Below, piece after piece: positions 13,609 through 16,141 of a DNA stretch of 34,528 bases (positions are counted from its first letter, which is position 1; every line of letters starts with the position of its first letter). The stretch covers positions 1 to 34,528 of the forward strand of contig JAJPKR010000032.1 in the NCBI GenBank assembly GCA_021323595.1, in the 5' to 3' direction. A program made the translations under genes and the position numbers. The notes below the pieces were generated by a model. That model did no database searches, was not told the DNA's origin, and saw only the letters and a list, made by a program, of their open reading frames with translations. The DNA comes from Terriglobia bacterium. GTDB lineage: Bacteria > Acidobacteriota > Terriglobia > Terriglobales > SCQP01.

Positions 13609-14409
13609 TCAACGCAATTGACCGTAATAGACGCGGGTTTCGTAATCCAGCCGCACCAGATCGTGCTGCCGATGGCGTTGGTACAGGACGTTGAGTTCCG
13701 CCATCATCTCCTCGTGGCCGGCCTCGCCGGGTTGGGGCGCATAGGAGGCGCTGAGGAGACGGCCGCGCAGCCCGGTCCAATCGAGCGCCTGGAAGTTCGG
13801 GAAGCAAGCTCTGCGGCAGCCGCCGGGCGGGAAGAAGCTCGAGATTCGTTCCTCCTCCCAGTGCTCGATGGCAACCTGCGTGTAGTCGCGGGAAAAGCGG
13901 CGCAGCAGGGCTTCGTAGTCGGCGAGAAAGGGCGAGCCGGTGGCCTTGCGCCAGTTCCAGACCAGAACGACCCATCCCTCCGGCCGCAGGATGCGGACGA
14001 ATTCGGCACGGGCGGCAGCCGTCGCGAACCAATGGAAAGCTTGCGCCGCCGCCACCAGATCGCAGCCGGCGGAGGGCAATCCCGTCGCCTCGGCGCGGCC
14101 ATCGCTCCAATGCAGCCGCGGATGCCCGGCGAGCCGCTGTTGCGCCGCCGCGCGCATGGCGGGGTTTGGCTCGACGGCAAGCACGGTCGCGCCGCTCTCC
14201 AGGAGCCGTTCCGTAAACAGGCCGGTGCCGGCGCCGACATCGGCGGCGACCGCGGACGGCCCCAACCCGCAGCAGCGCCGCAGAAGCTCGATCACCGCCG
14301 CGGGATAGCCGGGGCGATACAGCGCATAATTCTCCGCGCGTCCGGAAAAGCGCTCGAGGGGATCCGCTACGCCGTGGCCGGCGGGGCCGCGCTCGCTACC
14401 GCGATTCAT
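13609..14409 (-). CDS. class I SAM-dependent methyltransferase
   Basis: The 266-residue protein has the Methyltransf_11-type fold. The lead-in is ERFSGRAENYALYRPGYPAAV, and motif I DVGAGTG lies at residues 57-63. The acidic residue of motif II is in VLAVEPNPAMRAAA, and a GCDLVAAAQAFHWF motif IV region and a motif VI strand (GWVVLVWNW) follow. The C-terminal third (WEEERISSFF...) is less conserved. ATG 14409 overlaps the stop of the kinase/deaminase fusion gene by 4 bases (ATGA), so the two are translationally coupled. The acceptor could be a small molecule or a nucleotide; nothing in the sequence decides it. The frame is open upstream inside the fusion gene, but that is an overlapping shadow. 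Confidence 0.88.
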   Translation of the reverse strand: MNRGSERGPAGHGVADPLERFSGRAENYALYRPGYPAAVIELLRRCCGLGPSAVAADVGAGTGLFTERLLESGATVLAVEPNPAMRAAAQQRLAGHPRLHWSDGRAEATGLPSAGCDLVAAAQAFHWFATAAARAEFVRILRPEGWVVLVWNWRKATGSPFLADYEALLRRFSRDYTQVAIEHWEEERISSFFPPGGCRRACFPNFQALDWTGLRGRLLSASYAPQPGEAGHEEMMAELNVLYQRHRQHDLVRLDYETRVYYGQLR

Positions 14410-15416
14410 AGATCGCCGGGCAGGGTCACCCGGCGCAGCTCGACGCCCGCCTCCTGCAAGATGCGCAACGAAGCGGCGCCGAGCGGGTAGTCGGCGTTGT
14501 AGACGACCTCGCGGATGCCGGCGTTGATGATCATTTTCGTGCATTGCAGGCAGGGGGAAAACGTCGAATACAGCGTCGCCCCCTTGATGGCAATGCCGTG
14601 GTAGGCCGCCTGCACGATGGCATTCTCCTCGCCATGGGAGCAGACGCACTCGTCGAGCCGCGTGCCGCTGTCCGCGAGGGCGTTGCACCGGGGGCACCCC
14701 CCTTGATTGCAGTTTGCCACGCCGCGCGGGGTGCCGTTGTAGCCGGTGGAGATGATGCGGCGATCCTTGACGATGACGGCCGCGACCTGGCGCTTGATGC
14801 AGTTCGAGCGCAGCGCCACGATGCGGGCGATGCGCAGAAAATATTCGTCCCAATCCGGCCGCGCCTGATTTTGCAGCCAGGCGGAGATCCGCGTCTCGGC
14901 GCGCGCCAGGAATTCACCCAGGGCGCCGTCATTGGCCAGGGTGGCGTCGGCCATGGCCGCGGCGGCGTCGAGATTTTGCGCGTCGGGGCCGGCGCCGCCG
15001 CGCTCGCGCCGCTCGAGCTCCTCGAACTCGGCGAATGACTTGGGCACGCGCGCGCCGCCGCGCGCCCGCGCGCGCTCGTAGCGCACCGCGATCGGGGCTT
15101 CGATGTGCAGCAGGCGAAAGCGCGGCAGCCGCCGCAGCGCCTCGATCTCCGCCGGATGCCGGATCGAATCCACGACGTAATTGCGATCCGGGTGCATGCG
15201 CGCCATCGTGCGCTCGGCCAGCACGGCGGTGCCGAACTGGCGGCGCAGTTCGTTGCCCTTGGCGATCAGGTTTTCGCGCGTGGCCGGCAGGCCCAGGCGC
15301 TCCAGCTCGGCCCGCAGTTCATCGGAGAGCGAGAGGTAAGTGAAGCCCTTGGCCTTCAAATGATCGGCGAGCGTGGTCTTCCCCGAGCCGTTGGCGCCCG
15401 TCAGTCCCAGGACCAT
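14406..15416 (-). CDS. P-loop kinase-like domain fused to deoxycytidylate (dCMP) deaminase
   Basis: The 336-residue protein has two enzymes in one chain. Residues 1 to about 170 form a P-loop nucleotide-kinase-like domain: Walker A GANGSGKTT at 7-15, a lid-like Arg-rich segment (ERARARGGARV), and VVDSIRHPAEIEALRR as in dephospho-CoA/adenylate kinase relatives. Residues from about 185 to the end form a zinc dCMP deaminase with His261-Gly-Glu263 (catalytic HxE) and Cys289-x-x-Cys292 (SPCLQC). An extra Cys/His cluster lies before the active site (CNQGGCPRC and DECVCSH), as in phage-type dCMP deaminases. The expected reaction is dCMP to dUMP plus ammonia. The same domain order is known in yeast Dcd1 and in the bacterial antiphage deaminase AvcD/DcdV, though AvcD is considerably longer. 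It is coupled to a methyltransferase gene downstream and diverges from a NUDIX gene. Confidence 0.9.
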   Translation of the reverse strand: MVLGLTGANGSGKTTLADHLKAKGFTYLSLSDELRAELERLGLPATRENLIAKGNELRRQFGTAVLAERTMARMHPDRNYVVDSIRHPAEIEALRRLPRFRLLHIEAPIAVRYERARARGGARVPKSFAEFEELERRERGGAGPDAQNLDAAAAMADATLANDGALGEFLARAETRISAWLQNQARPDWDEYFLRIARIVALRSNCIKRQVAAVIVKDRRIISTGYNGTPRGVANCNQGGCPRCNALADSGTRLDECVCSHGEENAIVQAAYHGIAIKGATLYSTFSPCLQCTKMIINAGIREVVYNADYPLGAASLRILQEAGVELRRVTLPGDL

Positions 15417-15424
15417 AGGCTATT

Positions 15425-15430
15425 AGGGTA
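15425..15430 (-). promoter_or_regulatory. possible -10 element (TACCCT) for the kinase/deaminase gene
   Basis: TACCCT on the minus strand ends 8 bases before ATG 15416, and no Shine-Dalgarno is visible. The gap between this gene and the divergent NUDIX gene is only 83 bases, so both promoters must lie back to back here. Confidence 0.35.
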
Positions 15431-15487
15431 CTAGACGCGGATCGGAAATCAGGGCGCGGAGCCGGCCGCGCCCGCGGCGGATGCCGC

Positions 15488-15493
15488 TAGTCT
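15488..15493 (+). promoter_or_regulatory. possible -10 element (TAGTCT) for the NUDIX gene
   Basis: TAGTCT is followed by exactly six bases and then ATG 15500, with no Shine-Dalgarno. This fits a leaderless transcript. Confidence 0.4.
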
Positions 15494-15499
15494 GAAACC

Positions 15500-16141
15500 A
15501 TGCACGAATTGGTTTTGGCGGCGCGCACCGAGGCGCTGCTGGGCGGGCGGCCGCTGCAGGGGCTGGCGGTGGGCGGCGGCGAATACCTGGCGTTTCTGGC
15601 GCAACCGGAGAATACCCGGTTCATCTCCCGCGCCGCCGCGGAAACCGACCCCGCGTGGAAGCAGATCATTCCGTATATCGTCCTGCACTGCGCCGGCAGC
15701 GTCCTGCTCTATCGCCGCGGCGCCCACGGCGGTGAAGCGCGCCTGCACGCGCTGCATTCCATCGGCTTCGGCGGCCACGTCGCCAGCGGCGATGAAACCC
15801 TGTTCGCCGGCGGCTGGCGCACCTACCTCGACGGCGCGCGCCGCGAACTCGAAGAGGAAGTCGCGCTCGCGCCGGATGCGATCGCCGGCGAGCGCATTGT
15901 CGGCGTCATCAACGACGACAGCGTCGAAGTCGGGCGGGTGCACTTCGGCGTGGTGCATGTGTGCGATCTGCGGCGGCAGGAGGCGCGCCGGCGCGAGGCG
16001 CAGATCGCGGCGCCCCGGTGGATCGAAGTCGGGGCGCTGAGCGCGGCCGGGGTGGAGTTAGAGACCTGGTCCGCGCTCGTCGCCCGCCATTGGCCGGCGC
16101 TGGCGGCGCAGCCCGGATGGGCACCCCCGCCCTCGCGGTGA
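15500..16141 (+). CDS. NUDIX-family hydrolase (COG4112-like)
   Basis: The 213-residue protein should hydrolyse a nucleoside diphosphate linked to another group. A beta-rich N-terminal half with YIVLHCAGSVLLYRRG precedes a NUDIX-like region. That region has GFGGHV, an unusually long spacer of about 23 residues, and then the helix RRELEEEVAL, which supplies the REUxEE core. The final Gly of the classical box is Ala, and the first Glu of Gx5E is not in its usual place. The GGHV...GARRELEEE layout is what I recall for the MutT-like phosphoesterases of COG4112. It diverges from the kinase/deaminase gene, so a role in nucleotide clean-up is plausible but inferred. The stop is directly followed by the rplU promoter. 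Confidence 0.8.
   Translation: MHELVLAARTEALLGGRPLQGLAVGGGEYLAFLAQPENTRFISRAAAETDPAWKQIIPYIVLHCAGSVLLYRRGAHGGEARLHALHSIGFGGHVASGDETLFAGGWRTYLDGARRELEEEVALAPDAIAGERIVGVINDDSVEVGRVHFGVVHVCDLRRQEARRREAQIAAPRWIEVGALSAAGVELETWSALVARHWPALAAQPGWAPPPSR

Follow-up and report, generated by a model that had tools for sequence, protein, structure and literature searches.

In this work we address the function of a gene that joins a P-loop kinase-type domain to a dCMP deaminase, located in a window of 34,528 nucleotides (the whole stretch of DNA that was analysed) from a genome that is 97.6% complete. The initial annotation saw in it a compact candidate relative of the antiphage deaminase AvcD/DcdV or of yeast Dcd1, acting either in defence or in thymidylate supply. 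According to the results presented below, the gene product is probably a chromosomal, housekeeping-type, effector-regulated dCMP deaminase for thymidylate supply that bears an intact NMP-kinase-type domain.

Domain architecture and conservation of the fusion protein

In the interval 14406-15416 the minus strand forms an open reading frame, while the plus strand is not open. The gene and its parts are as follows:

14406..15416, minus strand: kinase-dCMP deaminase fusion gene, 336 aa, ATG start, stop codon 14406-14408
14874..15416, minus strand: N-terminal P-loop NMP-kinase-type domain, AdkA/UPF0200-like, residues 1-181 (3lw7_A, Z 23.1, 166 aligned, rmsd 1.8)
15375..15398, minus strand: Walker A motif GANGSGKT, residues 7-14 (G7, G12 and K13 invariant in 38 aligned homologues)
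14409..14867, minus strand: C-terminal dCMP deaminase domain, residues 184-336 (Pfam and structure matches)
14733..14744, minus strand: effector-site motif GYNG, residues 225-228 (kept in 71 of 76 homologues)
14628..14636, minus strand: catalytic HGE, residues 261-263 (H261, E263)
14541..14555, minus strand: zinc-binding PCLQC, residues 288-292 (C289, C292)

The Walker A motif and the complete deaminase site reported in the initial annotation (H261, E263, C289, C292) were thus all found in one 336-residue chain. Pfam profiles AAA_17/AAA_18 matched residues 4-124 and dCMP_cyt_deam_1 matched residues 188-306 (E 9.5e-25). Structure prediction with AlphaFold2 (mean pLDDT 91, pTM 0.73) agreed with the two-domain reading, as an adenylate-kinase-type fold at residues 1-181 is followed in the same chain by a dCMP deaminase fold at residues 185-336. 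The former was superimposed at 1.8 Å on 3lw7, an archaeal protein related to adenylate kinase and with AMP bound, while ordinary adenylate and UMP/CMP kinases gave much lower Z scores of about 16-17. The latter matched the dCMP deaminases 2hvw (Z 22.6) and 5c2o, a dTTP complex (Z 21.1).

Homologues with E<1e-100 numbered 38 in 396 Acidobacteriota genomes, with dozens more in other phyla, and by these counts the kinase-deaminase fusion is well above chance. The compact family is conserved over several phyla at 36-74% identity: the nearest homologues (63-74%) come from other Acidobacteriota MAGs, those of 50-58% from Acidobacteriota, Omnitrophota, Myxococcota/Deltaproteobacteria and Nitrospirota, and those of 36-41% from Bacteroidales and one Woesearchaeote. 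Among 76 near-full-length fused sequences, some of which are the same protein retrieved twice, HxE, PCxxC and Walker A (scored as GxxxxGK, which admits GKG/GKD variants besides GK[ST]) were present in all 76 and GYNG in 71. In the 38-sequence alignment the deaminase residues H261, E263, P288, C289 and C292 are invariant, and the invariants of the kinase half include G7, G12, K13, R58, S84, E90, R112 and R119. Such a pattern would fit a working nucleotide-binding or kinase site and not a decayed one. Two seemingly long kinase reading frames (L168, L170) were rejected by eye, as their extra length looked like in-frame shadow sequence 5' of a normal start.

Comparison with AvcD/DcdV and the genomic neighbourhood

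A defence role would make this protein a compact AvcD/DcdV-type antiphage deaminase that empties the dCTP/dCMP pools on infection and is restrained by a small RNA. The domain order is indeed the same, and the PADLOC dCTPase model matches the protein with 193 bits (E 3e-57), so automated scans could tag these genes as antiphage dCTPases. Two true AvcDs of the same phylum, however, score 516-542 with that model, and the curated antiphage_deaminase model NF041025 gives the fusion protein 137.3 bits, under its cut-off of 400. With the ComEB equivalog TIGR02571 the score is 117.2 bits at a cut-off of 219.45. Since both scores fall below their cut-offs, the protein is placed in neither group.

AvcDs over the NF041025 cut-off occur in 9 of the 396 genomes of the phylum and their occurrence is patchy, as in family f2, where about 5 of 43 genomes carry one and one of these copies is a fragment. 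In contrast, 15 families of the sampled phylum carry the fusion, and within them 38 of about 44 genomes have kept it (a hand count, with a few genomes unlisted). Among the AvcD loci examined, the ten with an intact N-terminus are all devoid of the Walker lysine (e.g. GLVGATGTD, GLVAPIGTD), and the effector-site motif, where readable, has the form GCN[DE]V or GWNDV instead of GYNG. AvcD also formed a clade of its own in quick trees of both domains, with support of 98 for the deaminase and 97 for the kinase, where it stands well apart, the branch length being 1.65 changes per column. For the deaminase the alignment is short and the deep nodes are weakly resolved, and the AU test did not reject a single group made of AvcD and the main compact clade (p 0.198), which speaks for the antiphage reading; the separation from AvcD is therefore based on scores, motifs and context, and not on the deaminase tree alone.

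No phage or plasmid record with at least 80% of the fusion was found. One IMG/VR viral contig (L189:657-1298) covers residues 73-329 at 46% identity and may be a virus-borne copy or host contamination. Another locus, L184 (G008:C145:74073-74645), holds a fusion-like kinase part with an internal TAG in a genome without a deaminase match, and is possibly a broken fusion gene.

The genes flanking the fusion are:

13609..14409, minus strand: class I methyltransferase, its ATG overlapping the fusion stop (ATGA)
15500..16141, plus strand: NUDIX-like hydrolase, oriented divergently to the fusion and conserved next to or near it in the 5 nearest relatives

Judging from the overlap, the methyltransferase is probably cotranscribed with the fusion; no counterpart of it was found near the fusion in the relatives examined. 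The NUDIX-like gene is the sole recurring neighbour of eight tested, with 44-50% identity in the five nearest relatives, where it has the same divergent arrangement and adjoins the fusion in three, being more distant in two. It is a possible functional partner, and one may speculate that a NUDIX enzyme turning triphosphates into dCMP or dUMP would fit the same pathway. The genes for ObgE, a NadD-like protein and GltX also lie in this neighbourhood. When 13 neighbours were passed through PADLOC, the search for defence genes returned weak generic matches alone (methyltransferase, HEAT repeats), and together with the high retention of the gene and its absence from the phage and plasmid records at that coverage this gives no sign of a defence-island or mobile context or of patchy occurrence. 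Wide conserved synteny was sought across relatives and found to be local only, within Myxococcota, Bryobacterales and Omnitrophota, in a survey where many of the greedily picked ORFs were shadow ORFs.

A small RNA was sought in the 83-base gap at 15417-15499; the search there gave no Rfam match, nothing prominent in the alignment, and folding z values of -1.5 to 0.1 in four loci, so an AvcI-like RNA gains no support from these searches. As evidence that would speak against its reading, the initial annotation had named a firm placement of the deaminase with housekeeping ComEB together with conserved synteny with housekeeping genes only. Such evidence was obtained only in part: the neighbours are of the housekeeping kind, but the ComEB score is under its cut-off, the AU test leaves a common clade with AvcD unrejected, and synteny is mostly not conserved.

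Model score, motifs, trees and context speak against AvcD membership, and we take the fusion protein to be a distant relative of AvcD/DcdV. From the kinship claimed earlier the relatedness is thus retained and the membership is dropped. We consider the antiphage function very improbable, and a false defence call is removed for these genes.

Nucleotide pathway and proposed role

Two routes lead to dU, through dCTP deaminase or through dCMP deaminase (PMC10733785, PMC12088426). Profile searches of the window's genome returned no match to Dcd, trimeric Dut (PF00692), dUTPase_2 (PF08761) or ThyA, and ThyX, Tmk and MazG are present. The fusion is the only dCMP deaminase of this genome, the remaining deaminase matches being weak and partial. 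Because Dcd, Dut and ThyA were undetected and there is no second dCMP deaminase, no dC-to-dU route other than the fusion was found in this genome. Candidates for dUTP removal are MazG or the NUDIX-like neighbour of the fusion. In the same genome a single open frame of 537 aa (G000:C24:108663-110087) shows two tandem ThyX (Thy1) domain matches and is possibly a duplicated or fused ThyX.

Domains, intact motifs, folds, tree placement, genome content and co-occurrence were observed directly, while the substrate, effectors, kinase activity and biological role of the protein are inferred. The C-terminal zinc domain would convert dCMP to dUMP, which ThyX would then methylate to dTMP. GYNG corresponds to the effector-site motif G(Y/W)N(A/G) of dCMP deaminases (PMC12088426) and predicts activation of the deaminase by dCTP and its inhibition by dTTP. 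The N-terminal domain is expected to bind a nucleoside monophosphate together with ATP. Its most likely task is to phosphorylate, or to sense, a (deoxy)pyrimidine monophosphate that belongs to this pathway; here an active kinase is slightly favoured over a pure sensor. The role in thymidylate supply, the other option of the initial annotation, is the one that the pathway content of this genome favours.

The situation is different in most other carriers. A strong Dcd match is also present in 32 of the 38 fusion genomes of the phylum, which excludes a strict swap of Dcd for the fusion; the carriers without it are the window's genome (G000), G376, G131, G211 and G258, and G330 has a weak match. 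Since both genes occur in those 32 genomes, the fusion could do other work in most carriers and not be their sole source of dU. The presence of Dcd agrees with an antiphage function, and also with nucleotide-pool sanitation or salvage, where the kinase would phosphorylate and the deaminase would remove or recycle (modified) dCMP, apart from bulk dTTP supply. The latter possibility also draws on the conserved divergent NUDIX hydrolase of the nearest relatives and on the co-occurrence of kinase and deaminase even as separate genes (see below). In the window's genome, however, no other dU source was found, so bulk dTTP supply is favoured there, and we regard sanitation or salvage as unlikely.

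Coupling of the kinase to dCMP deaminases and comparison with known systems

In genomes free of the fusion this kinase is found as a stand-alone gene. Such a kinase is accompanied by a dCMP deaminase in 78 of 85 genomes, compared with 61 of 273 genomes without the kinase (odds ratio 39; p 9e-32, a naive value that ignores relatedness); counted by family, the proportions are 22/24 versus 21/49 (p 5e-5). Abutting or overlapping genes in the kinase-deaminase order were found at eight loci of families f38, f44, f51, f57 and f83 and at an Elusimicrobia locus, and six genomes of f29 have the deaminase-kinase order, as read from coordinates. The Bacteroidales and Woesearchaeote fusions group in the deaminase tree with other stand-alone deaminases than the main fusion does (support 97), which suggests a second fusion event, although the kinase tree does not force it. 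A Lentisphaerota deaminase is 74% identical to that of the window and has no fused kinase, so the kinase is not required for the deaminase fold.

Time and again an intact NMP-kinase-type domain is thus coupled to dCMP deaminase: in fusions, which perhaps arose twice, in operons of either gene order, and through co-occurrence of separate genes. In consequence the role of the AvcD/DcdV kinase domain can be tested on a simpler housekeeping relative. This general coupling is the part worth following. We tentatively propose, as a minority possibility, that a dedicated, catalytically active AdkA-type NMP kinase might accompany dCMP deaminase throughout bacteria, whether fused, operonic or as a separate gene, in a two-step or self-regulating nucleotide module, from which AvcD might have arisen as its kinase site and its dTTP/dCTP effector site decayed.

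The fusion protein shares with the zinc-dependent dCMP deaminases (DCTD/ComEB/T4 Cd, EC 3.5.4.12) the deaminase fold, HxE, PCxxC and the G(Y/W)N(A/G) motif; unlike them it bears an N-terminal kinase-type domain, and it falls under the ComEB cut-off. In fold (Z 23.1 and 22.7) and in sequence (phmmer E 2.9e-9) its kinase domain is matched by the UPF0200/AdkA-like archaeal kinases 3lw7 and 3h0k, but these are single-domain proteins without a deaminase, whereas the fusion has both. Yeast Dcd1, of about 310 aa, consists of an N-terminal P-loop-like region and a dCMP deaminase and has a role in dTTP supply; we take the fusion to resemble it in domain order, going by the general description of that enzyme. 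With AvcD/DcdV the fusion has in common a kinase-type domain followed by a deaminase, the profile match being collinear over residues 1-236, but it is 336 aa long, in comparison with mostly about 510-580 aa, it is highly retained within families and not patchy, and it keeps intact the Walker lysine and the GYNG motif that are absent from the AvcDs of this phylum.
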